Below are positions 46,023 through 64,000 of a stretch of DNA of 64,000 nucleotides, piece by piece. Under the pieces are notes generated by a model that was not told where the DNA came from, did not search any database, and saw only the letters and a program-made list of their open reading frames with translations. The translations under genes were made by a program, and so were the position numbers. Numbering within the stretch: position 1 is the first letter of the stretch; each line of letters opens with the position of its first letter. This DNA comes from Denitrovibrio acetiphilus DSM 12809 (lineage in GTDB: Bacteria > Chrysiogenota > Deferribacteres > Deferribacterales > Geovibrionaceae), in NCBI RefSeq assembly GCF_000025725.1, contig NC_013943.1, positions 1,612,001-1,676,000 on the forward strand. The letters run 5' to 3'.

Positions 46023-46484
46023 TTTTTCCTCAAAAACATTAAAGTTTCGATACTTTCTAAACGTATGATATATCAAGAAAAACTAATTACAAGCATTCTT
46101 TTAAACTCTCTTTTAACCACGCAGGATATAAAAGTGTGTTGACTAATACAGAACAAAAAAGGATTTATTATCAGGATATTAGAAATATGATTATCTAATA
46201 CATATATGAAAGTTTAACGTTTCACACATCAAAATATAAAACAAGTTGATACAGAGAACTACTTAATTTAAAGAAAATATACTTATTTTACTTTTTCTAT
46301 GTCTCCATATTAATAAAAATTACCTTATAACATAAAAACTAGCCCTGAGCTTTATTCAAATCTGGTCCTTGTTTTGCCACCTTATTTCAATATAATTTTC
46401 ATACATTTTGCGGAGAGATAAGTAATCAATGTTTTGGATGTCATTATTATATACAGAATTGTATTAAACTGTGCGGAGGCTTCT
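46023..46484. other. Divergent promoter region of cit operon and chemoreceptor
   Basis: An AT-rich 460-bp gap with no gene I can support. For the chemoreceptor, TTGTTT (46369-46374) and TATAAT (46391-46396), 16 bp apart, are a possible promoter. I see no clear FNR-type palindrome. Confidence 0.45.
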
Positions 46485-48233
46485 TTGAAACTTAAAACTA
46501 AAATAATATTTGCTGCTGTGGCGGTAATGATAATTACTGTAATTATCATCCTTACACAAACAACTACGAAGTCATATGGGCAGCAGCTTAATATGACTCA
46601 AGAACACCTTAAAAAAGAAGCATATTATCTTTCAAAAAGTATCAATACATGGGTTAACAGCCACGTAACTGTTCTTGAAGCAATGGCAAAAGGCTTATCA
46701 GAAAATACCATATCAAAGGATGAAATTTCTGACAGGATTATTCCATTTAATAACCAGTTTGACTTCAAATCATTTCTTGTTGTTTTTGAGGGGACAAACA
46801 AAGTTGTCCAGTCCGAAGGCTGGGTTCCTCCATCAGACTGGAACCCGCATACGCGCGACTGGTATGTAGATCTAAAAAATACAGAAAAAACCGGGCTGTC
46901 TGCCCCTTTTATTCATTCTCAGTATAAAACAGAAGCACTTGTGCTTAATTCACCTCTTTTTACAGACAACAGGTTTTCAGGTGCAATAAGCACCACTTTA
47001 GAACTAAAGCCTCTTATCAAAGCTGTTGAAACAAAAATTGGTAAATCAGGCTACAGCTTTATTATATACAAAGACGGCACAATGATAGCCAACCCTAATA
47101 AATCTTTGATAATGAAAGCAAATGCATTTGATAAAATGCCTGGGTTTAAAGAACTGGTAGAAAAATCTGACAGCGGAACATATGAGTATAATTTTAACGG
47201 CATACAGAAAATGCTATATTACTATGTGGTTCCCGCCAATGGCTGGATATGCGCAATCACAATTGATAAAAACGAAATAGTCCAGCCAATTAAAAGCCAG
47301 ACTTTAACTATTATTATTACAAGTATATTCCTGATGGTTCTAAGTGCATGTCTCCTAATGGCTTTCCTTATTTATGGGTTTAAACCACTTGATAAGCTTG
47401 TAATAATGCTGGCTGACATTTCTGAAGGAGAAGGAGACCTTACCAAAAAACTTGAAGCAGGTGGTAAAGATGAACTGAATCAGGCTGGGCACTATTTCAA
47501 CAAATTTATCCAGAAACTTTCAGAAAGCCTCAAAAGTGTTGTAAGCCTTTCCGCTGATGCTGCAAATGAAAGCGAAAACATCAACCATACAATAGAAGTC
47601 ATGGCATCTGAACTGCATAAACAGGCACAGGACATACTAGGCCTTGCCGGAGCAATAGAAGAAATGAATACAACAGTATTGCAGGTGAGTGAAAATGCAA
47701 ACACCGCAGCATCACAAGCAGAAGAAACAAAAGAAAATGCCAAAGAAGGCAAACAGGCAGTCAATGATACTGTAAAAATGATGGAACAGATCAATTCTTT
47801 TGTCAAAGAATCAGCAGATGTCATTGCAAGAATGACCTCTTCCGTAACTCAGATCAATGATATAACTATAGTTATAAATGACATAGCAGACCAAACCAAC
47901 TTGCTTGCCCTCAATGCCGCCATAGAAGCAGCTAGAGCAGGAGAACACGGAAGAGGGTTTGCAGTTGTGGCAGACGAAGTACGTAAACTTGCTGAAAGAA
48001 CACAAACAGCCACAAGCGAAATATCAAAAATGGTTGATGAAATACAAGCTGAGTCAGAAAATGTCAGCACCAGTATAAAAAGCGGTGTTGATACAGTTCA
48101 AAGAGGTAAAGAAATTGCTCAAATATCTAATGATAAACTTGATATGATCATAGATGTTGCCACTGTGACATTAGACATGGTAACACAAATGGCAACAGCA
48201 TCAGAACAACAGGCAGCAAGAGCGTGTAAATAA
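46485..48233 (+). pseudogene. Methyl-accepting chemotaxis protein, 5' part, interrupted by IS element
   Basis: Start at TTG 46485, with GGAGG five bases upstream. One membrane helix ([20 protein letters not shown]), a dCache-type periplasmic sensor (about 35-275; [30 protein letters not shown]), a second helix ([22 protein letters not shown]), HAMP, and the signalling domain with [37 protein letters not shown]. Native sequence ends at 48219 and five foreign codons follow (RACK-stop). The missing 50 residues are at 49507-49666. The signalling tip is intact, so a shortened receptor could still be made. Confidence 0.9.
48212..48219. repeat. Target-site duplication, left copy
   Basis: GGCAGCAA, repeated exactly at 49507-49514 on the other side of the insertion sequence. 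Removing the element plus one copy restores the chemoreceptor reading frame (...EQQAATTTEIS...). Confidence 0.92.
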
Positions 48234-49506
48234 AAGTGTGTAAACGTCGTATGTGTTAAACTAACATGCGAGGTTTATGATGAAATTCAACAAGGACAAA
48301 CTGAAAGATCTGCTTGCTGAAAGCGATGTAAAGACCACAGAAGACCTTCAGGTGTTTATGCGTGACATGATGAAAGAAGTCATAGAAACGCTCTACGAAG
48401 GTGAGCTTGAAGCTCATTTAGGCTATAAGAAACATGAACCGAACGTAAGTGACGGCAACAGCCGTAACGGTCGTTCTTCCAAGAAAGTACAATCACAAAT
48501 GGGCGAAATGGAACTCGAAGTACCCCGTGATCGCCTATCAACCTTTTCGCCTGAAATAGTCAAGAAACGCCAGACAGATATATCAGGCATTGAAGCTAAA
48601 GTAATTTCCATGTATGCCAGGGGTATGAGTAACCGTGACATCAAAGAGCACATCTTTGATATCTACGGTCATGAGCTATCGCCGGAGACAGTCAGCGTTA
48701 TTACAGCCAAGATTCTCCCACAGGCTAAAGAATGGCAGAACAGAGCCTTGGAAGAGATATACGCCATCGTCTTTATGGACGGCATGGTTTTAAAGATGCG
48801 TGTGGACGGAGCTGTTCGCAACGTCACTATCTACTTTGTGATCGGCATCAGCATGGAAGGTCATAAATCCTGTCTGGGGCTGTATCTTGCCGAGACAGAA
48901 TCCGCTAAATACTGGCTGACAGTTATGAACGAGCTAAAGAACCGTGGAGTACAGGATATTCTTATCTTTGCCGTAGACAACCTCAAGGGCATCTCAGAAG
49001 CTATAACAGCCGCTTTTCCACAGTCTGAGATTCAGAAATGCGTAGTCCATCAGATACGCAACTCTCTCCGCTTTGTGCCCTGGAAGGAGCGTAAGACTGT
49101 GGCTGCTGACCTCAAGAAAATCTATGCCGCAGCGACCGAGGAACAAGCCAGAGCTGAGCTGGATGCCTTTGCTGAGAAGTGGGACAGCAAATATCCTAAC
49201 ATCTCGAAATCATGGCGGAACAACTGGACTGAGCTTTCTACGTATTTCAAATATTCCAAGGAGCTCAGGAAGCTGATTTATACCACGAATCCGGTTGAGA
49301 GCTTCCATTCTGCCATCAGGAAATCAACCAAAGGAAAAGGAGCCTTTCCGACGGAAGAATCCCTTGTAAAGCTCTTATATTTAGCTATTTTAGGTATCGA
49401 AAAGAAATGGACTATGCCAATCAGGGATTGGGGTGTAATATACTCACAGCTATATATCAACTATGAAGACAGAATTACGACTTTACACAGTTAATATGAC
49501 ACGCTC
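48220..49506 (+). mobile_element. IS256-family insertion sequence, 1,287 bp
   Basis: Bounded by terminal inverted repeats GAGCGTGT...ACACGCTC, perfect for 8 bp and matching again at TGTGTAAA about 18-25 bp in. Flanked by an 8-bp duplication (GGCAGCAA). It carries one full transposase gene and inserted into a chemoreceptor gene. The intact ends, ORF and duplication indicate a recent and potentially active element. Confidence 0.95.
48277..49494 (+). CDS. IS256-family (mutator type) transposase
   Basis: 405 residues of the MULE/IS256 DDE family. FMRDMMKEVIETLYEGELEAHLGY and PRDRLSTFSPEIVKKRQ near the N-terminus; catalytic acids in YAIVFMDGMVLK, IFAVDNLKGI and TTNPVESFHSAIRK; KCVVHQIRNSLRFV between them. 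Full length without stops. It catalyses cut-and-copy transposition of the surrounding element. Confidence 0.96.
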   Translation: MMKFNKDKLKDLLAESDVKTTEDLQVFMRDMMKEVIETLYEGELEAHLGYKKHEPNVSDGNSRNGRSSKKVQSQMGEMELEVPRDRLSTFSPEIVKKRQTDISGIEAKVISMYARGMSNRDIKEHIFDIYGHELSPETVSVITAKILPQAKEWQNRALEEIYAIVFMDGMVLKMRVDGAVRNVTIYFVIGISMEGHKSCLGLYLAETESAKYWLTVMNELKNRGVQDILIFAVDNLKGISEAITAAFPQSEIQKCVVHQIRNSLRFVPWKERKTVAADLKKIYAAATEEQARAELDAFAEKWDSKYPNISKSWRNNWTELSTYFKYSKELRKLIYTTNPVESFHSAIRKSTKGKGAFPTEESLVKLLYLAILGIEKKWTMPIRDWGVIYSQLYINYEDRITTLHS

Positions 49507-49736: not shown

Positions 49737-49765
49737 AGCCTTAGCCAATGAAGGCTCATTTTTTT
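49737..49765 (+). terminator. Terminator of the chemoreceptor gene
   Basis: AGCCTT (49737-49742) with AAGGCT (49751-49756), then CA and seven T. It overlaps the stop of the convergent methyltransferase gene. Confidence 0.75.
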
Positions 49766-50520
49766 ACTATTATCAGACCAAGATTAACTATTGTAGCATA
49801 AGCGAGATTAACACCATCTTCAGAATACTTTTCAAGCTCTGCTCTTATCACAGCATTGTCCGGTTCAACGTTGTATTCTCTGATCTCATCAGCAAGTTTT
49901 TCGACCATTTCCTCAATGCTTCTGTGCCTTTCCCACTCATCAGTCATTGGTGTATGGGTATAATTAAGCTTATTCTCATCCAGCCACTTGATAAAGCTAT
50001 CAGCAAAATCAAGCTTCATGGGGGCAATACCGAATTTTGCATACACATTCATAACCATTTCAGGCTCAACACGTCCGTGCCAACCGAGAAAGACCACATT
50101 TTCTAATGCATAATCAACCATTTTAGCAAAATCTTCCGGAGTTTTAACCGCAGGGGTTATTGTGCAGAATGTCACATCCCATCTTTCATCAGTCGTATAC
50201 TCTTTCCAGTTCACTCTGATACTTTTAAGATTAGACAACCCTTCGTCTCTGGCATCAGCGTCCATTATAGCGAGCATGTCTTCTGATATGTCTGTACCGG
50301 TGACATCCTTAGCTATTTTAGCCAGACGCAGAGTATAGCGCCCTGTACCACAGCCTATATCAAGAATCGTCTTCCCTTTCAGCGGAACACCTTTCTCCTG
50401 AATCATTTCAATTACGCTATCTTCAAACCCAGTGGTCTCATCTTTAAATCTGGGATAAGTAGCAGCTCTTTTATTCCACTTTTCCGCCATATTAAATTTA
50501 GTTGTTTTCTGTCTCAGCAT
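49756..50520 (-). CDS. Class I SAM-dependent methyltransferase
   Basis: 254 residues from ATG 50520, which follows AGGAG at a good distance; a GTG 9 codons upstream would overlap tonB. SAM-binding motif ILDIGCGTGRYTLRLAK at about 52-68 and acidic VTGTDISEDML. The substrate is unknown. It is the last gene of the TonB receptor operon, so the target may be related to a chelate, cobamide or porphyrin taken up by that system, but this is only context. Confidence 0.8.
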   Translation of the reverse strand: MLRQKTTKFNMAEKWNKRAATYPRFKDETTGFEDSVIEMIQEKGVPLKGKTILDIGCGTGRYTLRLAKIAKDVTGTDISEDMLAIMDADARDEGLSNLKSIRVNWKEYTTDERWDVTFCTITPAVKTPEDFAKMVDYALENVVFLGWHGRVEPEMVMNVYAKFGIAPMKLDFADSFIKWLDENKLNYTHTPMTDEWERHRSIEEMVEKLADEIREYNVEPDNAVIRAELEKYSEDGVNLAYATIVNLGLIIVKK

Positions 50521-50533
50521 CGGTAATCTCCTG

Positions 50534-51298
50534 CTATATTTCTGCACCGTTTATAGTAAAGCTTACGGGCAGACTGATAATTATATCTTTATTGAAGCTA
50601 ACATTAAAGGGGGCAGATTTGTTTATTGATTTAAGTACAATTTTATCCAGCGCTTTATACCCCGAAGAGTCCAGTATAGTAATGTTTTTAAGCTGACCAA
50701 CGGGAGAAAGGCATATCTCGACTTTCACAACGCCTGTCCAGCCCATTCTTCTTGCCGCAGAGGGGTAGCTCAGGTTATTTTTTATCTTATGTCTTATCTT
50801 ATCAAGTTTCTCATATGAAACTAAATTTGATGTATCAATAGGCGCAGGCACAGCATCAGGAACCACTTCTTCAACCAGAGGGGCTTCCTGTGTAAATGTC
50901 TCACTCTCCGGAGTAACTTCCGGCAAAGACTTAACCTGTTCATATGCGGTTAACTCAACCTGAGGCTCAGGTTCAGCAATTTCTTTGAAAACCGGAGCTT
51001 CCAAAGCTTTAACTTTTTCCACAGGCTTTTTTTTCGCAACCTTTGCTTTTGTTATCTCCTTTTTGATAACGGGTTTAACCTTCATCAACGGCTTTGTTTC
51101 TTCGGGGGCTTTTGCAGTTATAGGAACCGGACGTTTTTTTACATACCGAACAGTTACATCAGAAAAAGCAGCGGGGGTGAGCTTCGCATAAACTGTCTTA
51201 TCGTTCAGATCAAGACGGTACGCAATCATTATATGCAAAGCAATCGACAGAACCACTGTAACGTAAAATATTTTATATTCTTCATATTTTTTCAACAT
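50534..51298 (-). CDS. tonB: TonB energy-transducing protein
   Basis: 254 residues from ATG 51298 (MLKKYEEYKIFY). One N-terminal membrane anchor (YVTVVLSIALHIMIAY), a Lys/Glu/Pro-rich periplasmic spacer, and a TonB C-terminal domain with SYPSAARRMGWTGVVKVEICLS and ILDSSGYKALDKIVLKSI. It couples the inner-membrane proton gradient to outer-membrane receptors. ExbB/ExbD are not in the window. Overlaps the preceding gene by 17 bp. Confidence 0.9.
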   Translation of the reverse strand: MLKKYEEYKIFYVTVVLSIALHIMIAYRLDLNDKTVYAKLTPAAFSDVTVRYVKKRPVPITAKAPEETKPLMKVKPVIKKEITKAKVAKKKPVEKVKALEAPVFKEIAEPEPQVELTAYEQVKSLPEVTPESETFTQEAPLVEEVVPDAVPAPIDTSNLVSYEKLDKIRHKIKNNLSYPSAARRMGWTGVVKVEICLSPVGQLKNITILDSSGYKALDKIVLKSINKSAPFNVSFNKDIIISLPVSFTINGAEI

Positions 51299-52907
51299 TA
51301 ATAACCGCCGGTCTGATAATGCCGAATTTACTGACAAAATCATGCAAAAAAATATCCCTTACGCTAATGACTACAGTAAGGTCAGTCTTCATAACTTCTT
51401 TAATAAGAGAGAACCACCCTTCTCCCTTAAGCTCCAGCTTTCCTGCTTCATCTATAAAAACATATTTACTGTCTTTCATATCTCTTCTGACAGTTTCAAT
51501 GCCATACTGAAGTGCTGTTTCCGAAAAAATAAACTTACCCGTCCTGTCTCTCTGGCAAAACAGCTCAGTTCCATTGCTGCGGAGATTCCTGATATAATAT
51601 TTGTCCTTCACAGGCTCCAACTGATGCGCGAAGGCACAGAAACCGCAAACACCCAGAAACGAAAGCCTTTCAGCCTCTTTCAGCATAAATGTAGTTTTAC
51701 CGGAATTAACCCCACCCGTGACAATTATCACATTTGCAAATTGCTTCTCAGCCACAGAGTGTGCGGTTGTAACAAGGGAACGGAAAGTTCTCACGGGATT
51801 TTTCATGGCGCCTCTCCCTGCGAAGATTGGTTCAACAGCATTTCTTGTAATACCTGCTGTTTGAAGGGCAGTCTTTATTGTGTCCCCGTATCTCTTCTGA
51901 ATAAAGTTCCTGATAACCGGATGGGTGATTTCAAATGTTATCCCTGTGATGAATAAAGCCATAAAATATGCTCTAAACACCATCCTTACTCCTCCGGATA
52001 TCGCAACAACTGATAACACGCCATTCCCGTCAGCAGCATATATAAAAACACCTGACAGAAAAGATATCACAATGATAGGAAGCCAGAACTTCAGCTTAAG
52101 AAATTTCTTAAGCATATTGCGGTAACGCACTGCTGTATATACACTGAATATCAGCATCATAGGTATCACGACACTGTTTTCCGACAAAAAGATAAAAGTC
52201 ATAATCACACATATCAGATTCGCTGCCATCCATGGAAAAGATGGTTCAGGGGAAGAACCCATGGCAGGCTCTGACTGAACCTGTGGGGCAACGGGAATTT
52301 CTTTGATATAAAGCATATGAGCCGGCTTATTCTCGATAGACCTTCCTACGTTATATCCCGCAACAGCAACAATGCAACCCCACACAGCATAAACTGATGC
52401 AATGATCATAATACCGGCAACAGGAGTGAGGCTTTTCAGCCCTGTAACCCCTGCTGTTTCCTCAATAAATGTCGCATACAATATATATATATTTGCTCCA
52501 TACATCATAAGCATACGTATGAATTTATGAACAAGAGTGTACAGCAGCGCCAGAGAACCGCCCAGAGCAAAGCCAAAAACATTACTCCCCAGAATCTTCT
52601 GCCCGGCTTCCATCAGACAGCCTTCAAAAGATATAGATATAGCTGGATTTATAATCTTGTGACTAGGGGAAAAGAATTTAAGTATTGCAGCTGTCAGCCC
52701 TGCCCGCCAGAAAAGCCCCTGTTCTCTCCATCTGGCATTAATTCCCGAAAGTAGTGCAATACCAATGCTTGCCATTATGTATCCCTTCATGGGTACTTTC
52801 AGGTTATGCAGCAGAGACCCGAGCAGAAGCTCAGAGGTGCCCCAGACACCTCCGGCAACCGCTCCTCTTTCCCATTTGTTTTGCAGAGTCGTTTTATCTT
52901 TTGTCAT
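51282..52907 (-). CDS. Polytopic membrane protein fused to a THEP1-like NTPase
   Basis: 541 residues. Residues 1-205 have about five hydrophobic segments (GAVAGGVWGTSELLLGSLLHN, GYIMASIGIALLSG). Residues 230-375 contain further membrane helices (FWLPIIVISFLSGVFIYAA) and a soluble loop, reminiscent of an ECF-type T component. From about 390 a nucleotide-binding domain begins: Walker A VTGGVNSGKTT (396-406) and Walker B YVFIDEAGKLEL, as in the NTPase_1/THEP1 family. I do not know this architecture as a described transporter. It lies 1 bp after the TonB receptor gene and overlaps tonB, suggesting the inner-membrane step of the same uptake pathway. Confidence 0.72.
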   Translation of the reverse strand: MTKDKTTLQNKWERGAVAGGVWGTSELLLGSLLHNLKVPMKGYIMASIGIALLSGINARWREQGLFWRAGLTAAILKFFSPSHKIINPAISISFEGCLMEAGQKILGSNVFGFALGGSLALLYTLVHKFIRMLMMYGANIYILYATFIEETAGVTGLKSLTPVAGIMIIASVYAVWGCIVAVAGYNVGRSIENKPAHMLYIKEIPVAPQVQSEPAMGSSPEPSFPWMAANLICVIMTFIFLSENSVVIPMMLIFSVYTAVRYRNMLKKFLKLKFWLPIIVISFLSGVFIYAADGNGVLSVVAISGGVRMVFRAYFMALFITGITFEITHPVIRNFIQKRYGDTIKTALQTAGITRNAVEPIFAGRGAMKNPVRTFRSLVTTAHSVAEKQFANVIIVTGGVNSGKTTFMLKEAERLSFLGVCGFCAFAHQLEPVKDKYYIRNLRSNGTELFCQRDRTGKFIFSETALQYGIETVRRDMKDSKYVFIDEAGKLELKGEGWFSLIKEVMKTDLTVVISVRDIFLHDFVSKFGIIRPAVINVEKI

Positions 52908-52908
52908 A

Positions 52909-54891
52909 TCAGATCTTTATCATAAGCCTTGTAAACCAGTATCTCCCCTCCTGAGGAAATCCCTCAGAGTATGAGTAATCTCTGTCGAAGAGGTTTTCGA
53001 TACCAGCCTCAACCGTCACACGCTCCATCGCATTGTAGCCTATTTTTGTATCTACAAGGTACATCCCGCCCATCTCTGTCCAGTCGCCTCTGTTTTCTTC
53101 GTACTGGCTTGTCTGAAGAGTAAGGTTGGAGGAAACATAAAATTTATTGAGTGTCAGAACATGATTGAGAAAAAGCCTGTGTTCCGGACGGTCAACAAGT
53201 TTGTCTGTATCTCTGTCACTGCTTTCATTTTTAGCATCAAGATATGTGTAGGCAAGTGTAACGTCGTTGATATCCATAAAAGTTCCGTTCAGAAAAACTT
53301 CAAAACCTTTATACGTAGCTTTATCGGCATTTTGTTTCTGGTCATAAACAGTGCCGTCAATAGTTACTGACCCATCTGTAATAAGGTCTTTTATTTCAGA
53401 ATAGAAGACATTTGCCTGAAGTGTAACAAAACTGCTCAGAGCCTGTTTAACACCAATTTCATAATTTACGGCCTTCTCTTCTTCAAGATCGGGGTTTTCA
53501 ACATAGTCGCCGTCTATATAAGTAGAATACAGATCTTTCAGAGAGGGAAAACGTGTTGTTTTAGCAACAGAAGCGTGTAACTGGGTTTCGTCTGAATATG
53601 TATAGAGAAGTTCAGCCTTCGGACTGAAAGTATGTATAGAATCTCTGAGATCGTCCCCTTCTGTGCCGTCTTCATTATCAGCATGTACAGGTTCGTTTCT
53701 GTCATAGGCAAGCCCTAGGGTCAGCAGAAGCTTGTTGTTAAGCACAATAGCGTCTTCGATACCTGCATAAACCGTATCAGCCTCATACTTCAACCACGGT
53801 TCGCCGGAGTCACCTTTTGATTTGTGCTGATCTCTTCTGTATTGAAATGTAAGAGACACTGTATTTCCCGGAATTATATCTGTTGTCATGCCGAGAACAG
53901 CTCCCATAGCATAATCGTCATATGTGCTCTCCCATGCCTTTCTGGAAAGCTGGGTGCTGTATGTATCGTCATCATAAGAGTTAATAACGTTGTAATACTC
54001 ATCACGGTAGACTCTCGCCCTAACCTTCAAGTGGTCAAAAGCTGTGTCCGCTATAAGATAGTATGTCTTCTTATCCCAATCGGTCATACGCCAGTACCTT
54101 GAAGAGTCCAGAACACCGTGAGGAATACCCCTTTCGCTGGCGATGTAGTTGTACCCCAGACTAACTTCCGTTTTGTCAGTGGGAGTCAGACCAAGTTTAA
54201 AATTAGCTGTTTTTGACAGATAGTCAGAGTTCTCTCTCTCGTCTCCATCCTCTTTCACTGTTTTGTGAAAATTATCTGAAAGCATATAGCCGTCAGAGTC
54301 TTCGTAATTACCGGAAAATGCTATATAAAACTTTTCCTGCTTAGTCCCCAGCGAAAGACCTGAGCTGAATCTATTGTTTCTCCCGTATTCGAGATCCATT
54401 TCCGCTTCAAACGGTTTAACAGGTTTTCTCGAGACAATATTTACAGCCCCTCCCAACGCATTTGCACCAAAATCAACAGATGGAGCGCCGGTCTGAAGCT
54501 CTATCTTCCCAACGCTGTAAAGTCCTATCTTGCCCATATCAACATAGCCGTCATACGGGAGCGAAACGGGAATACCATCCATAAAGATTGGAATATGCCT
54601 TTGATCATAACCGCGGACATAGATATTTTTTTCGTTTCTGGTTCCGCTGGTGATAGAAATACCGGGCATCATACCGAGGGCTTCCGTCACATCCTTCATC
54701 CCTGCCTTTTCAAACTGCTCCCTGTAAAGCTGTTTAGAATTAATTGTAGCTGAGCTTGTTTGTGCCTGTTCGGTGCTCACACTGATCTCTCCAAGCTTAT
54801 AGACACTTTCTTCATCAGCAGATGCGATAAAAGATACATTGAGCATCATCATACTGATGAACATTACAAAAACACTTCTTATCATTAACAT
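52909..54891 (-). CDS. TonB-dependent outer-membrane receptor
   Basis: 660 residues from ATG 54891, which has GGAG 8 bp upstream; several in-frame ATGs further up lack this. Signal peptide (SVFVMFISMMMLNVSFIASA), TonB box/plug region (KLGEISVSTEQA, GMKDVTEALGMMPGISITSG, NIYVRGYDQRHIPIFMDGIPV, GANALGGAVNIVSRKP) and a 22-strand barrel. The final part (VEAGIENLFDRDYSYSEGFPQEGRYWFTRLMIKI) is typical of BtuB/siderophore receptors. The substrate is not clear; vitamin B12, haem or an iron chelate are candidates. First gene of the four-gene operon. Confidence 0.9.
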   Translation of the reverse strand: MLMIRSVFVMFISMMMLNVSFIASADEESVYKLGEISVSTEQAQTSSATINSKQLYREQFEKAGMKDVTEALGMMPGISITSGTRNEKNIYVRGYDQRHIPIFMDGIPVSLPYDGYVDMGKIGLYSVGKIELQTGAPSVDFGANALGGAVNIVSRKPVKPFEAEMDLEYGRNNRFSSGLSLGTKQEKFYIAFSGNYEDSDGYMLSDNFHKTVKEDGDERENSDYLSKTANFKLGLTPTDKTEVSLGYNYIASERGIPHGVLDSSRYWRMTDWDKKTYYLIADTAFDHLKVRARVYRDEYYNVINSYDDDTYSTQLSRKAWESTYDDYAMGAVLGMTTDIIPGNTVSLTFQYRRDQHKSKGDSGEPWLKYEADTVYAGIEDAIVLNNKLLLTLGLAYDRNEPVHADNEDGTEGDDLRDSIHTFSPKAELLYTYSDETQLHASVAKTTRFPSLKDLYSTYIDGDYVENPDLEEEKAVNYEIGVKQALSSFVTLQANVFYSEIKDLITDGSVTIDGTVYDQKQNADKATYKGFEVFLNGTFMDINDVTLAYTYLDAKNESSDRDTDKLVDRPEHRLFLNHVLTLNKFYVSSNLTLQTSQYEENRGDWTEMGGMYLVDTKIGYNAMERVTVEAGIENLFDRDYSYSEGFPQEGRYWFTRLMIKI

Positions 54892-54946
54892 TTGCATTCT
54901 CCATCTGTTTTTCGTTATATATTTCATTACATAACGCATAATCTGT

Positions 54947-54975
54947 TTTATACTCAAACGTAAAAGTATTGTCAA
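54947..54975 (-). promoter_or_regulatory. Promoter of the TonB receptor operon
   Basis: On the minus strand TTGACA (54970-54975), a 17-bp spacer and TATAAA (54947-54952). No convincing Fur box or riboswitch is visible in the leader of about 50 nt. Confidence 0.75.
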
Positions 54976-55289: not shown

Positions 55290-56471
55290 CTATTTAACTT
55301 TAATAAAAAAGACAAGCACAAAACCAGTCAGCATAATAGGAATAAGCATAAGTGCCGCTGTCACCCAACCGGCATGTTCTATAAGCTCACCAAACAAAGC
55401 TGGTCCGACACACATACCGATATACTGACCGAAAGCAAGAATAGACATGCCCGCCCCTGCATGTGACGGATATTTCATTATTTCTGCTGCTGCTGAAAAA
55501 GCTGCTGGCGCTATCATTGCTGCAAAAGAACCAAGAAGTATAAGTGTGAAGGGGATCATTTTGTCAGAAACAACAAAAGGAAGTGCGACTCCCATTGAGG
55601 CAAAAAATATGCCGCATAGAATTACTTTCTTATATGATTTAATACGGTATGCAATATAACCTGCGACTGGACTGATGATAAGAGAAGCAACAAGAAAAAG
55701 ACTTGTAACCGCAGATGCCTTTTCAGGAGTAAAATCACGCTGAATCTCAAGGAATGAAGGCATAAATGTACATATTGCCATCACCATTATATTAAAAATA
55801 ACAAAAACAGCAGCCAGAACCCATATGCTGGTATTTGAGTATGGACGGAAAGAACTCTCATCATCGCCCCCATGTTCTTCATTTATACTCTCATTGAGGG
55901 TATCAGGCATACGGAAAAAAAGAATGAACACAAAAAGCATAACTAAAGTATAAAGACTGCTAAACCCCCATACTGATTTCCAGCCCCAAAAACTATTCAT
56001 GGCAGGAGCTATCAGAAACATAAGGATGCTGCCGGCAGATACCCAGGTTGCCCATATCCCCATAGGTATGCTGCGTTTTTCAGGAGGAAACCAGACTGCA
56101 ATAGCCGCCGGAGCAATAACAGAAATTAGACACATTCCCACACCTTCGATAATACGGCTTATGATCATCTGCGCAGAGTTGTCAGATGCCCATCCTATAA
56201 ATGACCCTATCATAAGGGCACCAAGAGCCACTATCCCTGACCTCTTCAGCCCCAGACCATGCACTATAAATCCGGAAGGCAGAGCGAGAGCTATGCCCAT
56301 GATAGCAAATACAGACATCATGAATCCTGCTGACGCTATGCTAAGATTTAAAGATGACATCATGAAAAACATAACCGGAGGAACCTTAAAAAGATTGACG
56401 GGTGCTGCAATACTTACCAAGAAAATAATAATAAAAATTGTTAATGAATAATCAAAACGTTTCCGACTCAT
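55290..56471 (-). CDS. MFS transporter (CynX/NimT-like)
   Basis: 393 residues, 12 helices. GIALALPSGFIVHGLGLKRSG, IISRIIEGVGMCLISVIAPAAIAVWFPPEKRSIPMGIWATWVSAG is the conserved helix 4-5 region of anion-type MFS carriers. A good AGGAG site precedes the ATG. Substrate unknown. It stands apart from the downstream siderophore-type cassette (over 500 bp upstream gap) and could be an independent organic-anion carrier. Confidence 0.82.
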   Translation of the reverse strand: MSRKRFDYSLTIFIIIFLVSIAAPVNLFKVPPVMFFMMSSLNLSIASAGFMMSVFAIMGIALALPSGFIVHGLGLKRSGIVALGALMIGSFIGWASDNSAQMIISRIIEGVGMCLISVIAPAAIAVWFPPEKRSIPMGIWATWVSAGSILMFLIAPAMNSFWGWKSVWGFSSLYTLVMLFVFILFFRMPDTLNESINEEHGGDDESSFRPYSNTSIWVLAAVFVIFNIMVMAICTFMPSFLEIQRDFTPEKASAVTSLFLVASLIISPVAGYIAYRIKSYKKVILCGIFFASMGVALPFVVSDKMIPFTLILLGSFAAMIAPAAFSAAAEIMKYPSHAGAGMSILAFGQYIGMCVGPALFGELIEHAGWVTAALMLIPIMLTGFVLVFFIKVK

Positions 56472-56742
56472 AATACATCTCCTGTTTAAACGAGAAAAAA
56501 ATATACATATTGTTAGAGTAGTTTCTAAATTAATATTTGTGTTTCAGGGGAACTTCTGAACAGCTTTTTATCATACAATAAATAGTGTTTTTGTGCTTCA
56601 AAAAAAGTTAACTTAGCAGCTTAAATATTTTAATATTCATACAGCTCATTCTTGTTATGCCGCTATACAAAATATTAATCGCTCAAACTAATTATCGACC
56701 AATAAAATACGTAAAAACCATAACATTTAAAAATGTGGTCAG

Positions 56743-56764
56743 GTTCAGAACTCACTATCTGAAC
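56743..56764. promoter_or_regulatory. Inverted repeat GTTCAGA-N8-TCTGAAC
   Basis: Perfect 7-bp arms in the intergenic region upstream of the decayed gene at 56819. Operator-like; the regulator is unknown. Confidence 0.5.
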
Positions 56765-56818
56765 ATTGTTAACTATGTATCTCTGTGAAATTGTATTGAA
56801 AACTATAAAGGAGAAAAT

Positions 56819-57035
56819 ATGAGGTTAAATTTGATTTTTTGTATTTTCCTGTTTCGCTTGTATTTCTTTAATCGCAGTTGCACAGGAAGATAACTCTTCT
56901 ATCAGAAATTCATCTCATTGCCGGCAGCGGGTGTATTTACTGCCATTGAGATATGGCAGATGCCGCACATATGCACAAAAAATGCACTGGTAAAAACCAA
57001 TATGTGCAGCACCGCAAAAGATTTAGTTGTTTTTT
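56819..57035 (+). pseudogene. Decayed exported protein, possibly a small c-type cytochrome
   Basis: AAGGAG followed by ATG at 56819 begins a signal peptide (MRLNLIFCIFLF) that shifts frame and continues ACISLIAVAQEDNSS, a plausible cleavage region. Further frames show GSGCIYCH, a haem motif followed at once by a stop, and then DMADAAHMHKKC. I read this as a short exported cytochrome-like gene broken by at least two lesions. The fragments are short, so coincidence cannot be excluded. The 3' end runs into the convergent MFS gene. The rest of 56472-56742 is AT-rich with nothing recognised. Confidence 0.35.
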
Positions 57036-58235
57036 CTACACTTCAGCAGGCTCAGGAACAATGTTCCTGTCTTTGTGTCTCAGCGAAACAACAGAAAGAA
57101 ATATAAAGGCTAAAGAAGCAGCAGCAAAAGGAACAACAGGATCCAACCCATATAAAGCGGTGCTCACAAGGGGACCGGCTATCATACCTATACCCTGAGC
57201 GGCGGAAACAGTCCCTGCTGCCATCCCCTGTTCGTGTGATTCAACAGAATTAGCCGCCAGAGCCTGAAAGGCTGGAAATATCATCCCCATTCCCAAAGAC
57301 GCCACACAAAAGCCGAATATTAGCACAAGCTGCGAGTCCATAACAGATACAACCGCCATCCCTATCCCTGCTGTAACAGCACCTATTCTCAACCATAAAG
57401 AGGGCATAACCGACCTGAACCGTGAAACAGCTATCTGGCTGGCAACAAATGTAATACCTATAGATGAAAGGGTATACCCCGTAACCTTTGAACTTTCTAT
57501 AACTCCCAGTCCAAGACCGTCCATCACAAAAAAACCAAGACAAACCTGCGACGTAACTACACTATACATGGTAAGAAAAGCAGCAGACATGGGCAGCCTC
57601 AGACGAGGATCCACCATTTTTACTTTTCCATCCTGCTCTGTGTGCTCCTGTTTTGATTCAGGCAGTTTAAAATAAAGCACCATAAATGCTATAAGTGGTA
57701 ATAATGCCGCAACATACAGAGGTACCGCAAGACCATAAACAGCCAGCATCCCTCCGAAAGCAGGTCCGAAGATCATCCCCATACCTGTTGATGCACCAAG
57801 TTTAGCCATATATGAAGCTCTCTCAACAGGTTCTACTTTATCAGCTATATATGCCGCAGAAACAGGAGGAACAGCGGAGTAAAACAACCCTATCATCCCC
57901 CGTGTAAAAATCAGTATAAATAGTGTAACTACAACTGCCGGAGGCGACACAAGCGCGAAATCTACAAAAGCGGCAAGAGCCATATAAGAGGCGGTAAATC
58001 CCAGAGTGCCGGCAAGCAGAATAATGCGTCTTCCGGTTCTGTCGCTTCGCTTACCCCACGCCCGTGCTGTAACTATCCAGATAACACCTGCAACAGCGAC
58101 AGTAAGACCTGCATGCCATTCCTGAAGACCAAGCTCTCTGATAAGAGGGCCAACCACAGACAGAAATGCCATCAAAGCGGAAATACATAAAATATTAGCA
58201 ATCATCAAAGGTTTAATTTCTTTCATTTCTTTCAC
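57036..58235 (-). CDS. MFS transporter (DHA1/TetA-like)
   Basis: 399 residues, 12 helices. Motif A appears as WGKRSDRTGRRIIL in the first half and motif C-like GMGMIFGPAFGGMLAVYG near helix 5, both typical of proton-driven efflux pumps of the DHA1 group. It is 7 bp after the FptX-like gene and so probably co-transcribed with the siderophore cassette; it may export a siderophore or its remains, or be a second permease. Confidence 0.8.
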   Translation of the reverse strand: MKEMKEIKPLMIANILCISALMAFLSVVGPLIRELGLQEWHAGLTVAVAGVIWIVTARAWGKRSDRTGRRIILLAGTLGFTASYMALAAFVDFALVSPPAVVVTLFILIFTRGMIGLFYSAVPPVSAAYIADKVEPVERASYMAKLGASTGMGMIFGPAFGGMLAVYGLAVPLYVAALLPLIAFMVLYFKLPESKQEHTEQDGKVKMVDPRLRLPMSAAFLTMYSVVTSQVCLGFFVMDGLGLGVIESSKVTGYTLSSIGITFVASQIAVSRFRSVMPSLWLRIGAVTAGIGMAVVSVMDSQLVLIFGFCVASLGMGMIFPAFQALAANSVESHEQGMAAGTVSAAQGIGMIAGPLVSTALYGLDPVVPFAAASLAFIFLSVVSLRHKDRNIVPEPAEV

Positions 58236-58242
58236 CTGTTTA

Positions 58243-59526
58243 TCATATGTTTAAGCTTTCAGAAGCCATCATTCCGGCAGCGGATGTTTCATCAGACGTG
58301 TCTGCAGCGCTATAGAACCTTACAGAAAGATATACCCCTGCCAGAGAACATAACGACGCAGAAATAAGTATCAGGCTGTATCCGAAAAAACCAGCCAGTA
58401 TAGTCCCCATAATACCGCTGATAATCCCTACCAGAAAAGTCAGGCTATGCTGCATGGCGAAATCAGTTGCCGGAGTTTCTTCAGAACACATATCCATCAT
58501 AATAGTTGACAGAACAGTTGACGACGGAGCATAGATCAGCAGCATAGAACCTATTGCAAGACTTGCCCAGAAACCGCTATACCCAAAAACAGGCAGCAAG
58601 AGCATAAGAATACATAGTGACTGCATAAAAGCCAACACCACCAGCATTCTCTTGCGGCCTAATCTGTTTATCATACGACCACAAATATAAGCAGTGGCAG
58701 CACCGACGGCAGCTCCTAAGACATTTACAATAAATCCTATCTTCTCAACAGACCACCCGACATCAACCATTATAGGACCTATCAGAAAATACGAAAGAGA
58801 CACGCCCATAGGGTATATTGTCATAAGCCTGAGCCAGCGCATCTTCCCTCTGCCACTCCAGAAACGTAGAATTATTCTGTGATAAGGAATCTTTTCTTTC
58901 CCATAAGATACATGCTCCCCCTCTTTGAAAAAAAGAAGCTGCCCAATAGCCAGAACAGAGAGTGTACACATAAAAATAAAACTCCCGGACCACCCCAGAA
59001 GCCCATACAGAACAAGAGCCAAACCGCCCCCCAGCATGTATCCCATCATACCGCCTGCTATTTTTATTCCGTTTCCGACGCCTCTGTTACTCTCTCCGAC
59101 TAACCTGTAAACAAGTGCGTCCAGTGCGACGTCGTGTGTTGCAGCCAGAAAACCAACAACCATGCTCAAAGCGATTATCACAGTAATATGCTCGGTGACA
59201 TCACACATGCCAATCAGTACTAAAACACCAAAGAGAAGAAACTGAATAGAAACCAGCCACCCTTTAAGATGCCCCACACCTTTGAAAAGCCGAACTCTGT
59301 CTATAAAAGGAGCCCAGAGAAATTTAAAAACCATAAATATCCCCAGCAGGTAAACAAAGCCAATCTTCTCAAGGGGCAGACCATTCTTTCTGAATATAAC
59401 GATCAGACCCTCCAGCAAAAAGCTGAAACCGAGAAACTGCACCACAAAAAGCGAAAAAAGCATAAAAAGCTCTCTCGACTTAACTTTTGCAGGCGCTCTG
59501 TTTATGCACTTACATGAATCTGCCAT
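58243..59526 (-). CDS. RhtX/FptX/YbtX-type MFS permease
   Basis: 427 residues from ATG 59526 (MADSCKC). 12 helices with the AmpG/RhtX-like features LEKIGFVYLLGIFMVFKFLWAPFIDRVRLF near helix 2-3 and ATHDVALDALVYRL near helix 4-5. RhtX and FptX import rhizobactin and pyochelin over the inner membrane, and YbtX is coded in the yersiniabactin cluster. Its place next to two YbtP/Q-like ABC genes and a TonB receptor supports a siderophore role. Confidence 0.8.
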   Translation of the reverse strand: MADSCKCINRAPAKVKSRELFMLFSLFVVQFLGFSFLLEGLIVIFRKNGLPLEKIGFVYLLGIFMVFKFLWAPFIDRVRLFKGVGHLKGWLVSIQFLLFGVLVLIGMCDVTEHITVIIALSMVVGFLAATHDVALDALVYRLVGESNRGVGNGIKIAGGMMGYMLGGGLALVLYGLLGWSGSFIFMCTLSVLAIGQLLFFKEGEHVSYGKEKIPYHRIILRFWSGRGKMRWLRLMTIYPMGVSLSYFLIGPIMVDVGWSVEKIGFIVNVLGAAVGAATAYICGRMINRLGRKRMLVVLAFMQSLCILMLLLPVFGYSGFWASLAIGSMLLIYAPSSTVLSTIMMDMCSEETPATDFAMQHSLTFLVGIISGIMGTILAGFFGYSLILISASLCSLAGVYLSVRFYSAADTSDETSAAGMMASESLNI

Positions 59527-61283
59527 TCCTGCACCCTCTTTTGAGATTCCCACATCGCCTTATATTTGCCATTAAGCTTCAGCAGGTCACTATGACAGCC
59601 GGATTCTCGAACCCTGCCTTCATCCATAACAATAATACTGTCAGCTCCGGCAATGGTGGATAGTCTGTGAGCTATTACTATAACAGTTCTGTCATATACA
59701 AGAGCATCAATAGCCCTCTGAACAGCAAGCTCACTTTCAGTATCCAGAGCTGCTGTAGGCTCATCCAGTATAACTATCGGGGCATCTTTCAGTATGGCGC
59801 GGGCAATGCTAATGCGCTGTTTCTCCCCGCCTGAAAGACTCCCGCCAATATCTCCTGCTTTTGTTCCGTACCCGTCAGGCAGACGCTGAATAAACTCGTG
59901 GCAATATGCACTGCGGGCAGCCGTCATAACCTCTTCGTCTGTTGCGTCCGGGCGTCCCATTCTGATGTTATTTAGTATTGTGTCATCAAAAAGATATACA
60001 TCCTGAAATACAACAGACAGCATCTTCATCAGGTCATCCGGCTGAAAGCTTCGTATATCTTTACCGCCTATTTTAATGCTCCCTTTTGCAGGGTCTGCAT
60101 ATCTCATTATCATTTTAGCTATTGTTGTTTTACCCGAACCGGAAGGTCCCACAAGAGCAGTCATGGAATTTTTCTCCATTTTAAGGCTGACATTATCAAG
60201 GGCTTTCATTTCTGTATCCTTATATAGAAAGTCAACACCTTCAAATTCTATTTCAAAACTGTCAGGCATCTCTCCTTGCCCTTCTATATCAAGCTCTTTC
60301 TCTCCCATCAGCTCCTTTATCCTGCCAAATCCCGCCCCCATTATGTCAAACATTGTTGCAATATGAACAAACAGGGATAAAGGCTCGGTAAGGCGTGAAA
60401 CAGCCACAAGAAGTGCAGCCATAACCGGAATAGTCAGCGAGCCGCCTTTTATCAGATAAGCTCCTAATACCAGAACCACCAGAAGACCGATTTCAACCAC
60501 AGCAGCCATAACCAGAGACGGGAGAACTGTCATGGTTGACGCTTCTTTCTGTATGTTTTTAAGCTTTTTAAGGGAAGTCTGCAAAGATTGTGCTTTCTCT
60601 CCTGTCATATTCAAAGCACGAAGGACATGAACTCCCTGTATATATTCAACTATGTCACTGCCAACTTCAGCGTGAGCGTCGGCAACATCCTGTTTTTCCT
60701 GTTGAGAAAGCCGCCTTCGCCATTTATAGACAGGGATCGCCATAGGAAGTATAAGGAGCAGTGCCCCCGCCAGACGCCAATCGATGAATACCGTCACGAC
60801 AAGCACACCGAAAGGGATAAAAAATGTCTGTAATATCTGACCGGCAAGAACTCCCATATGCATAACAGACTCTTCAACATTGTTTGCCAGAACAGAATTC
60901 AGTTCACCTGTCCTCCTGCTATAAAGTATTTCAAGAGGCATAGTGCGCAGCTTCTTCCCAAGCTTTACACGGAGGCTGTTTGTAATGTCCACTATGTGAC
61001 CATGATAATCATGCCTGTACGCAAACCAGCGAAGCAGAGAATCGACAAAAGCAAGGGATGCCATCACCCCGAGCCAGAAAAATGCCTTTGAAGGGTCTGC
61101 ATTCTCACCGAAACTGTATACAAGAACAGGGAAGAAACATGTAAAGGATACCCCCTGTGCTATATAGGCAATGATAAACAAGATACACATTTTTTTAAAA
61201 CCTGCGCTCCTGTCATCAGAAATTTCCAGAGACATCTGGTATGATTCCCTGAGGTTAAGAACTTTATTATTAACTTGCTTCAT
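59502..61283 (-). CDS. ABC transporter, fused membrane and ATPase domains (YbtQ-like)
   Basis: 593 residues from ATG 61283, with AGAGGAAAG just before it. Six membrane helices (about 25-300) then an ATPase domain: Walker A GPSGSGKTT, Q-loop VFQDVYLFDDT, signature LSGGEKQRISIARAIL, Walker B IVILDEPTAALD. It has exporter architecture, but the YbtP/YbtQ pair of this type imports iron-yersiniabactin. It overlaps the upstream ABC gene by 14 bp, so the two probably form a heterodimer. Efflux is the alternative. Confidence 0.85.
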   Translation of the reverse strand: MKQVNNKVLNLRESYQMSLEISDDRSAGFKKMCILFIIAYIAQGVSFTCFFPVLVYSFGENADPSKAFFWLGVMASLAFVDSLLRWFAYRHDYHGHIVDITNSLRVKLGKKLRTMPLEILYSRRTGELNSVLANNVEESVMHMGVLAGQILQTFFIPFGVLVVTVFIDWRLAGALLLILPMAIPVYKWRRRLSQQEKQDVADAHAEVGSDIVEYIQGVHVLRALNMTGEKAQSLQTSLKKLKNIQKEASTMTVLPSLVMAAVVEIGLLVVLVLGAYLIKGGSLTIPVMAALLVAVSRLTEPLSLFVHIATMFDIMGAGFGRIKELMGEKELDIEGQGEMPDSFEIEFEGVDFLYKDTEMKALDNVSLKMEKNSMTALVGPSGSGKTTIAKMIMRYADPAKGSIKIGGKDIRSFQPDDLMKMLSVVFQDVYLFDDTILNNIRMGRPDATDEEVMTAARSAYCHEFIQRLPDGYGTKAGDIGGSLSGGEKQRISIARAILKDAPIVILDEPTAALDTESELAVQRAIDALVYDRTVIVIAHRLSTIAGADSIIVMDEGRVRESGCHSDLLKLNGKYKAMWESQKRVQEWQIHVSA

Positions 61284-63066
61284 CTTTCCTCTCTCTGACA
61301 CTAATGTCCCAAGACTGCGCCTGCTCATAGTTACCCCACAAACGGGCATATATACCGCCTGAATCTTTCAGATATTCATGACGTCCCCTTTCGACAACAC
61401 AGCCCCCATCCATCACAATTATCTGATCAACATCTCTGATGGTTGAAAGTCTGTGAGCGATGACTATCACGGTTTTATTTTTGGTGAGATTCGCAATGGC
61501 TCTGATTATCTCTTCTTCGTTTTCAGGGTCAGCAAACGCTGTTGCTTCATCCAGCACTATAACCGGCGCATCCCGGAGTATCGCTCTGGCAATGGTTATC
61601 CGCTGTTTCTGTCCTCCGGACAGCCTGGCTCCTCTGTCACCCGCTTTTGTGCTGTATCCATCAGGCAGAGTCATTATAAAATCATGTATACATGCAGCTT
61701 TTGCAGCTTTTATAATCTCTTCGTGGGTTGCGTCAGGCTTTGCCATTCTGATGTTGTCAGAAAGCGAGTCGTGAAACAGAAAAGTATCCTGAAAAACAAA
61801 AGAAACATGCTCCATAAGTTTTTCAGGGCTGATATTCCGGACATCAATACCACCGACTTTAATACAACCGCTCTCAACGTCCCAAAACCTTGGGATCAGC
61901 TTTGCCACAGTGCTCTTGCCTGCTCCTGAAGGTCCGACAACAGCCGTCACTGTCCCTTTTGGAACTTCAAAACTCACATCACGCAGAGCATACTCTTTTC
62001 TGCTGCTGTATCTGAAAAATACATTTTCAAACACAACAGATGAATCCTGTGGTTCTTTTGGGGTTTCACTGACAGACAGAACGGGAGAATTGAGTACTTC
62101 ATTTATTCTGAAAGCCCCCGCCTGAGATTTTTTTATAAAATTATTCAGCCACATTAAGGGCATCATAGCATCAGCCATACCTGTACTCATCATAAGTGCC
62201 GCTACAAATGCAGAGAACGACAAAGTTCCTGCCGATTTGAAATATATACCCGCAGCGGTTACAGCCAGCAAAGTAGGAATGGGGCTGAGTATGAGCAGAC
62301 CTATCCTTGCAGGAATGCCCGTGGCATTTATCCACTCTTTCAGCCCTTTCTTATAAATATCCAAAGCGGTCTGATATCTCATAAAAGAGCTTTTACCATC
62401 GTCAAATGTTCGTACCACAGGCATTGCCTGAACGAACTCTATGACGGCAGAATTTATCATCTCCTGCCCTTCTTCATATTTTTTTCGGTATGATGCGGCA
62501 TCACGCATTACAAACCCCATCACAGTGAAACCGATAACCAGTACAATCGTACTGACAAGAGCTAGCCGCCAGTCAATTATAAACATCAACGCCATAGACG
62601 CTACGGGCGCAGCTATCGTGCGTCCTATGAAAGGAGTGCTGTCCGCTACGAACGCATGCAGACTCATCACATCATCCACCATAACCTTTTTCAACGCACC
62701 CGACCCTGTTGTTAAAATATACCCCATAGGAACCTTTGCTAAATGACCGGCTATTCTGGTACGAAGGATCTCTTCCAGAGCAAAAGCACCGTTGTGCGAA
62801 ACTTTAAAAGCATAGGTTCTGAAAATAAAAGCGATTGCTGTCAGCAGTATGGTTAACCATACTGATTCCCACACTCCGAACCTAAAACCGATAAACTCTG
62901 TCTCACCGCCGTTTACCAGCGCACCAACAGCCAGTGCCATAAAAAGCATGGCTCCTACAGCAGAAAATGCGCTGAGACCAGCAAGTGTTATACCTGCTTT
63001 GATTTCAAACATAACAGGAGCCATGATGCTCCACAGCCCCTGTTTCATAGTATTATTCTTTTTCAT
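61270..63066 (-). CDS. ABC transporter, fused membrane and ATPase domains (YbtP-like)
   Basis: 598 residues. Membrane domain about 15-310 (MEIVL-type helices; MGYILTTGSGALKKVMVDD). ATPase domain: Walker A GPSGAGKST, Q-loop VFQDTFLFHDS, signature LSGGQKQRITIARAIL, Walker B VIVLDEATAFADPENE; the FADPENE sequence after Walker B is typical of the YbtP/siderophore-linked group. It lies 6 bp after the TonB receptor gene and is the first of two ABC half-transporters. Confidence 0.85.
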   Translation of the reverse strand: MKKNNTMKQGLWSIMAPVMFEIKAGITLAGLSAFSAVGAMLFMALAVGALVNGGETEFIGFRFGVWESVWLTILLTAIAFIFRTYAFKVSHNGAFALEEILRTRIAGHLAKVPMGYILTTGSGALKKVMVDDVMSLHAFVADSTPFIGRTIAAPVASMALMFIIDWRLALVSTIVLVIGFTVMGFVMRDAASYRKKYEEGQEMINSAVIEFVQAMPVVRTFDDGKSSFMRYQTALDIYKKGLKEWINATGIPARIGLLILSPIPTLLAVTAAGIYFKSAGTLSFSAFVAALMMSTGMADAMMPLMWLNNFIKKSQAGAFRINEVLNSPVLSVSETPKEPQDSSVVFENVFFRYSSRKEYALRDVSFEVPKGTVTAVVGPSGAGKSTVAKLIPRFWDVESGCIKVGGIDVRNISPEKLMEHVSFVFQDTFLFHDSLSDNIRMAKPDATHEEIIKAAKAACIHDFIMTLPDGYSTKAGDRGARLSGGQKQRITIARAILRDAPVIVLDEATAFADPENEEEIIRAIANLTKNKTVIVIAHRLSTIRDVDQIIVMDGGCVVERGRHEYLKDSGGIYARLWGNYEQAQSWDISVRERKDEAS

Positions 63067-63072
63067 TTTGCA

Positions 63073-64000
63073 TCAGAAATAATATGCGGCGCCAACGCCA
63101 AGGATACGCCCTCTGGAAGGCATGCCAACGATAACATCCGCGCCATCCACCATAGATGCTCCGTAGTTCCAGCCATAGAGGTCATAAACTTTATCCAATA
63201 TGTTATCACCCCACACATAGACTTCTAAGTTTTCACTCATTACTCCTATGCGGAAATCAAGTTTGTTATAAGAGTCAAGTTCAAATGTGTTTGCAGGATC
63301 CCCTTCTCTGCTGCCGATATACCTGTTTGTCACAGTAGTAACAAGAGCAGGTGCTTTAAATCCCCAGAAAGGCTTCAGCGAAAGACTGTGAGCAATCGAA
63401 ACTGTTGCGTTCCACTCGGGAGAGTTTGGAATACTGTTTCCTTCCTTCGCACCTGAGGTTGAGCCGCCCGGCACAGTTTTGATCTCTGCATCGGTGTAGC
63501 CAAAACCTGCTGTGATGGTGAACCCGCCCCCCGGTTTAACAAAACCGCTGAACTCTGCACCTTTGCTCTCTGTATCAAAATTCTCCACGTCAGATACTCT
63601 ATCCATGTGGTTCCATACCATCACATGGTCATCTTTTATATCGTTATAAAAGAATGCAACGTTTAAGCCTGATTTACCATTCGGAGCTTCAAACTTTGCC
63701 CCCAGTTCAAAACTATCTATTTCAGCTTCGTCATATATAAGATCGTTATCGTATCCGTTTATAAACGCGTTTCCCCAGTCGTTATATCCTTTTGCCTTAT
63801 GCCCTCTGGCATAAGTAAGATAAACATTCGTATCCTCACGCACAGCATAGCTTACAGAAACTCTCCCTGTTCCATAGGATTCAGACATTTCATCAGAATC
63901 AGAGGCTGTTCTGATTGTGCTGGGGTTTGATGGATTAGCCGTCCAGTCTGTATCATACTCCTTTTTATCCCACGTATAACGCAAACCGCCGGTAAGTTTC
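63073..64000 (-). CDS. TonB-dependent receptor, C-terminal part (runs off window)
   Basis: About 309 residues of barrel sequence continue past the window edge without a start. Features: LTGGLRYTWDKKEYD, YLTYARGHKAKGYNDWG, LELGAKFE-like EIDSFELGAKFEAP, YVWGDNILDKVYDLYGW and the terminal GVGAAYYF. These match the C-terminal half of siderophore receptors of the FyuA/iron-complex type. It leads the operon with the ABC pair and FptX-like permease, so it should bring the same ligand through the outer membrane. Confidence 0.9.
   Translation of the reverse strand, partial: KLTGGLRYTWDKKEYDTDWTANPSNPSTIRTASDSDEMSESYGTGRVSVSYAVREDTNVYLTYARGHKAKGYNDWGNAFINGYDNDLIYDEAEIDSFELGAKFEAPNGKSGLNVAFFYNDIKDDHVMVWNHMDRVSDVENFDTESKGAEFSGFVKPGGGFTITAGFGYTDAEIKTVPGGSTSGAKEGNSIPNSPEWNATVSIAHSLSLKPFWGFKAPALVTTVTNRYIGSREGDPANTFELDSYNKLDFRIGVMSENLEVYVWGDNILDKVYDLYGWNYGASMVDGADVIVGMPSRGRILGVGAAYYF

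Follow-up and report, generated by a model that had tools for sequence, protein, structure and literature searches.

A TonB-linked family of membrane proteins with a THEP1-type NTPase is a candidate importer of molybdenum cofactor or its pterin

A gene of Denitrovibrio acetiphilus DSM 12809 encodes membrane domains fused to a THEP1-type P-loop NTPase. It belongs to a widespread family whose gene neighbours include molybdenum cofactor genes and whose members co-occur with molybdoenzymes in genomes where moaC, a Mod/Wtp permease and mostly MoeA are absent. We consider it probable that the family takes up finished molybdenum cofactor (Moco) or its pterin, that is, Mo-molybdopterin or metal-free molybdopterin.

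The window is a 64,000-nucleotide stretch of contig NC_013943.1. Within it, the fusion gene is an uninterrupted minus-strand ORF of 541 codons with an ATG start, and it is the second gene of an operon of overlapping genes in the order TonB-dependent receptor (TBDR), fusion, TonB and methyltransferase (Table 1). A single nucleotide separates the TBDR stop from the fusion start (TGA-t-ATG). The last codons of the fusion gene run into the TonB ORF, which in turn overlaps at its end with the methyltransferase ORF. Pfam identified the plug and barrel of the receptor as well as TonB, both elements of a TonB-dependent uptake system, and also the methyltransferase. A sequence-only reading had described a membrane protein fused to a THEP1-like NTPase in a TonB operon, and this description was borne out by the open reading frame, the gene spacing and the Pfam matches. 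Two other regions of the window were noted. Upstream on the same strand (55290-64000) lies a siderophore-type cluster with a partial TBDR (63073-), ABC exporter-type proteins (61270-63066 and 59502-61349) and three MFS proteins, one of them RhtX/FptX-like, in a layout resembling YbtPQX. At 46434-49494, a methyl-accepting chemotaxis gene is apparently shortened at its 3' end directly before a mutator-type transposase gene (48277-49494).

Table 1. Features of the operon and of the fusion protein, with positions in the window and supporting matches.
Feature	Position	Strand	Support
TBDR gene (outer membrane), first of operon	52909..54975	(-)	Pfam TonB_dep_Rec_b-barrel 2e-39 and Plug 1e-17
Fusion gene: membrane domains and NTPase_1, candidate Moco/molybdopterin importer	51282..52907	(-)	541 aa, start ATG
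S-component-like membrane domain, residues 1-192	52332..52907	(-)	alignments; AF2 pLDDT mostly >80; Foldseek 5edl
Second membrane domain, residues 218-386	51750..52256	(-)	AF2 helices; T-component-like in layout only
NTPase_1/THEP1-type P-loop NTPase domain, residues 392-541	51285..51734	(-)	Pfam NTPase_1 4e-12
Walker A GGVNSGKT, residues 398-405	51693..51716	(-)	G403 and K404 invariant in 60 homologues
Walker B FIDEAGKLEL, residues 484-493	51429..51458	(-)	D486, E487, G489 and E492 invariant in 60 homologues
TonB gene	50534..51343	(-)	Pfam TonB_C 3e-15; TTG at 51295 is the probable start
SAM-dependent methyltransferase gene	49756..50547	(-)	Pfam Methyltransf_25 7e-14

The C-terminal domain is a member of the NTPase_1/THEP1 family. 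Residues 394-526 matched PF03266 at 46.8 bits against a cut-off of 23.9, a cut-off also passed by 6/6 Deferribacterota homologues, and both Walker A (GxxxxGK[ST]) and Walker B (DExGxxE) are present; the DEAGKLEL motif previously pointed out as the Walker B lies inside the Pfam match. Profile searches of PDB sequences with this domain recovered 1ye8 (3e-16) and 2i3b (3.5e-13), and Foldseek matched it to human THEP1 (2i3b, prob 1.0). Residues 1-386, in contrast to the NTPase domain, matched no Pfam and no NCBIfam family; they are predicted to be helical and are largely hydrophobic.

We modelled the protein with AlphaFold from 60 homologues (pLDDT 85, pTM 0.72), replacing a poor model made from six sequences (pLDDT 68). 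In the alignments, W12, G19, W22, E26, G30, H34, N35, P39, W60, K77, S80, P81 and P88 are invariant in the S-like domain and R312, E326 and P330 in the second membrane domain, which in the model ends in two long helices (330-363 and 371-386) running into the NTPase. Foldseek returned the ECF S-component 5edl among weak matches (prob 0.96, TMt 0.46, E = 0.31), which makes an S-component reading of the modelled residues 1-192 possible. The layout of modelled residues 218-386 suggests a resemblance to an ECF T-component. PDB profile searches gave no sequence match for either membrane part (the S-like domain or residues 218-386), and a Pfam search of residues 218-386 for a T-component found no match. 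The likeness to ECF S or T components that had been proposed is retained as a possible fold match on the S side and as a likeness of layout on the T side. The NTPase is an NTPase_1 domain rather than ABC_tran, and since it is not an EcfA-type ABC ATPase, the evidence does not extend to a classical ECF mechanism. An internal duplication of the S domain was considered and dropped, as the second matches were noise.

Full-length homologues with 36-46% identity are found in five other Deferribacterota species. A genome scan with the single fusion protein as query gave no match. A scan of GTDB genomes with a pattern of the membrane part returned 232 related stretches, and the 80 that we kept are chiefly from Bacteroidota, with single loci in Acidobacteriota (Bryobacteraceae), Elusimicrobia, Ignavibacteria and others. 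A single gene encodes all three parts at most loci; several loci have the NTPase in a gene of its own alongside. In a sample of 247 Bacteroidales genomes, 84 (about a third) carried the membrane part, fused in 57 and apart in 27, and 24 of these 27 had a matching NTPase as a separate match. As the membrane part and the NTPase are fused in most genomes and co-occur in the rest, we take them to work together. Judged by its sequences, the family appears to be undescribed, its membrane part lying outside Pfam and NCBIfam. The fusion had been called novel; it is not confined to this genome but is the usual form in a widely distributed family.

Several variants were seen. At four loci (L173, L174, L176 and L181:5110-6315), stand-alone S-like proteins of 132-213 aa are encoded next to MobA and narGHJI, and NTPase_1 has its own gene; such small proteins, from moaC-less genomes, are a minimal form that lacks the second membrane domain. 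In genome G022 (L019:9786-10646), an in-frame deletion joins the first ~37 fusion codons to tonB, with the loss of nearly the whole importer. In another Deferribacterota genome (L020:9145-14048), an NTPase_1 gene that stands alone is grouped with those for DUF364, a Peripla_BP_2 protein, an ABC ATPase and TonB, which suggests that an ABC-type importer, too, is served by this pairing of NTPase and DUF364.

We clustered the genes of 140 loci, wider regions included, and checked what the recurrent neighbours encode. The commonest neighbour was DUF364, found at 33/140 loci and immediately adjacent in all 33. MobA occurred at 18/140 loci (16 adjacent), MocA at 9/140, an orthologous TBDR at 16/140, ModE-like HTH regulators at 11/140, DMSOR-type molybdoenzymes at 13/140 and XDH at 8/140. 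A molybdenum gene lies within five genes at only 43/140 loci, or at 71/140 if DUF364 and the TBDR are counted. Individual gene orders include TBDR, DUF364, fusion, MoeA and MogA (L108); molybdoenzyme, 4Fe-4S protein, TBDR and fusion with MobA next (L113); MobA, membrane protein, PhsA-like enzyme, 4Fe-4S and NrfD (L125); and membrane protein, NTPase, XdhA and XdhB (L128). The TBDR link recurs: by BLAST, the window TBDR has 28-31% identity over ~640-680 aa to receptors at positions -1/-2 of loci in Bacteroidota and in one Bryobacteraceae (Acidobacteriota) MAG.

These neighbours point to the molybdenum cofactor rather than to a corrinoid, haem or nickel. The latter cargoes had been suggested by the sequence-only reading and were abandoned: no such genes recur next to orthologues, and genome-wide co-occurrence also favours the molybdenum cofactor. 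A riboswitch search at Rfam gathering thresholds, covering the window and nine orthologous loci, gave no match. A TonB-linked single-chain inner-membrane importer of a vitamin-like cargo, as that reading had proposed, is consistent with the evidence. A methyltransferase homologue lies beside the fusion only in Deferribacterota (three genomes, opposite strand, ~34% identity by BLAST), and with this narrow recurrence its proposed action on the cargo stays speculative. In one Bacteroidales clade (L026-L088; 11-13 related genomes), the gene follows genes for a Tat-exported sugar-isomerase-like protein, a Gfo/Idh oxidoreductase and a cytochrome/FGE-like protein.

If the family served molybdate, carriers would be expected to make their own pterin. 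Among the 247 Bacteroidales genomes, 107 have moaC, and it is more frequent in carriers (57/84) than in non-carriers (50/163; OR 4.8, p 4e-8, without tree correction); yet 27 of the 84 carriers lack it. Molybdoenzymes (XDH-type or DMSOR-type) were present in 26/27 of these moaC-less carriers versus 6/47 randomly drawn moaC-less non-carriers (p 3e-13), a contrast that partly reflects the near-universal presence of molybdoenzymes in carriers, for which reason we added tests on Mod/Wtp, contigs, the tree and MoeA. The family thus occurs where molybdoenzymes exist without moaC; in one carrier (G234) we found no molybdoenzyme. A Mod/Wtp permease was absent from 26/27 moaC-less carriers. MoeA was absent from 20/27, and its presence in the other seven compares with 0/47 in the moaC-less non-carriers.

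Four of the six molybdoenzyme-bearing moaC-less non-carriers hold divergent or truncated versions of the system. In three (G110, G202 and G323), MobA and a narGHJI operon adjoin the gene for a stand-alone S-like protein (132-213 aa), a separate NTPase_1 gene is nearby, and G110 has a TBDR as well; the S-like matches are weak taken alone (a search of small size gave E ~1e-4 to 1e-3), but the gene set is identical. In the fourth (G131), the contig ends inside the membrane gene. With these four recounted as carriers, molybdoenzymes are present in 30/31 versus 2/43. Genomes without moaC make up ~31% of molybdoenzyme-bearing carriers versus an estimated 22% of molybdoenzyme-bearing non-carriers, or ~9% after the four divergent cases are moved, where the latter two shares are extrapolated from the 47-genome sample and the contrast is smaller than the headline one. 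The contrast between carriers and non-carriers rests on the other missing genes as much as on the moaC-less share.

The MoaE model gave no match even in moaC-positive Bacteroidales controls and is thus uninformative on import of cPMP combined with an MPT synthase. The absence of a MoaE match in three moaC-positive carriers (G058, G152 and G322) and in carrier G025 suggests that their lineages use a molybdopterin synthase that is divergent or of another kind. nifD never overlapped with carriers, which rules out molybdenum supply for nitrogenase. We also rejected a mere replacement of ModABC, as moaC-positive carriers mostly keep Mod/Wtp and the window genome has ModABC.

Most of the surveyed genomes are MAGs, and G304, where a 6.7-kb contig carries MoaA and MoeA and a Wtp permease is also present, is probably a false moaC negative. 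On this account, incomplete or wrongly binned MAGs could have produced the moaC-less pattern, which would then say nothing about the substrate. We consider such an artefact improbable. In 35/57 moaC-positive carriers moaC and a Mod/Wtp permease are on different contigs, whereas any Mod/Wtp permease was found in 1/27 moaC-less carriers (binomial P 3e-10); lost contigs are thus not the cause, since Mod/Wtp is gone too though usually encoded elsewhere. At three loci (L167, L171 and L172) MoeA lies mid-contig and moaA and moaC are not there, molybdoenzymes adjoin the family gene on the same contig, and G277, a 4.8-Mb genome in a single contig of 4,812,386 bases, encodes the importer, the NTPase and two XDH-type proteins but neither moaC nor MoeA. 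On the family tree the moaC label changes at least 20 times, with 8 changes forced by well-supported branches, so that moaC was lost repeatedly and not in one clade.

A different cargo with the same metal would be molybdate, tungstate or a Mo/W chelate (molybdophore), imported under ModE-like control into a cell that makes its own cofactor. The ModE-like HTH at 11 loci, a TBDR suited to a metallophore, and locus L020, where a Peripla_BP_2 protein, an ABC ATPase and TonB accompany NTPase_1 and DUF364, are consistent with this, as are the ties that the literature draws between DUF364 and transporters of Mo, W, V and Fe (PMC2954201). However, it leaves the molybdoenzymes of genomes without moaC, and mostly without MoeA, unexplained; Mod/Wtp is present as well in 45/57 moaC-positive carriers, and the family never occurs in nitrogenase genomes. 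We regard this reading as rather unlikely. The tight linkage to MobA, MocA and molybdoenzyme operons would also suit a membrane-bound maturation or storage factor that passes Moco or nucleotides to molybdoenzymes without any import, and so would the NTPase domain; MobB is likewise a P-loop protein. Such a factor could not substitute for moaC, though, and the linked TBDR and TonB genes speak for uptake, and we give this possibility little weight. Uptake of a siderophore or other iron chelate, with the operon as a continuation of the siderophore-type cluster, seems least plausible and highly improbable: that cluster lies upstream in the window and a Fur-type regulator lies upstream in related genomes, but siderophore-type genes are not beside the orthologues, whose conserved neighbours are molybdenum genes.

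For uptake of Moco or its pterin, we infer substrate, direction, energy coupling and the roles of DUF364 and the methyltransferase as follows. The TBDR, driven by TonB, would take the pterin through the outer membrane, and the membrane domains (residues 1-386) would move it through the inner membrane. The THEP1-type NTPase in the cytosol, whether part of the same chain or not, may power transport or remove the pterin. MobA or MocA would then form MGD or MCD for molybdoenzymes, and MoeA and MogA, where kept, would insert Mo after import of molybdopterin. In many Bacteroidota DUF364 would help with processing, a place that the methyltransferase may fill in the window genome. Free Moco is oxygen-labile, which counts against its import. 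A pterin-related role for DUF364 fits its structure-based prediction of binding or acting on flavin- or pterin-like ligands in metal uptake (PMC2954201). The window genome has MoeA, a MoaE match, ModABC, a second Mod-like ABC set and 19 Molydop_binding matches, and no DUF364; given its own MoeA, MoaE and ModABC, the system would there scavenge Moco and supplement synthesis in a heavy molybdoenzyme user. We lean slightly towards the fuller proposal of a TonB-fed, single-chain importer in the inner membrane that takes up finished Moco by means of a non-ABC NTPase of the THEP1 type, with many Bacteroidota as natural auxotrophs sharing a cofactor pool.

The non-subscription literature searched contained no bacterial Moco importer. 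Uptake of exogenous Moco has been seen only in C. elegans and not examined or observed in other organisms, and how Moco passes membranes has been raised as a question (PMC9793310, 2022). Moco exchange in anammox consortia was inferred from MAGs without a carrier being named (PMC10116762). The family is probably an importer of finished Moco, a type of uptake so far unreported for bacteria, and with its defined partners this candidate makes both membrane passage and exchange of Moco testable. If the proposal is true, Moco joins the shared vitamins, and DUF364 and a group of THEP1-type NTPases acquire functions.

The family shares features with several known systems. Its NTPase resembles NTPase_1/THEP1 proteins (PF03266; 1ye8, human NTPCR 2i3b) in P-loop, Walker A, DExGxxE Walker B, sequence and fold, but known members are soluble, whereas here the domain is fused to or beside an uncharacterised membrane protein. 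Possible parallels with ECF transporters are an S-like helical domain (possible fold match 5edl) that is also found alone, another membrane domain that ends in long cytosolic helices, a partner that binds nucleotide and, as proposed here, a vitamin-type cargo; unlike them the family has no ECF family sequence match, a non-ABC NTPase and everything in one chain. DUF364, its commonest neighbour, links it to the DUF364/DUF4213 systems with metal ABC transporters, from which the window genome differs in having no DUF364. The ModABC/WtpABC importers of molybdate and tungstate also serve molybdoenzymes but are unrelated proteins: Pfam and NCBIfam detected no ModB-type permease or ABC ATPase in the fusion protein or operon, and the family remains where Mod/Wtp and moaC are lost. 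TonB-dependent vitamin uptake of the BtuB (B12) or PqqU (PQQ) type likewise has a TBDR and TonB and carries a finished cofactor, as we propose here, whereas the inner-membrane part of the present family is neither BtuCD nor a known permease and its proposed cargo is Moco or molybdopterin.
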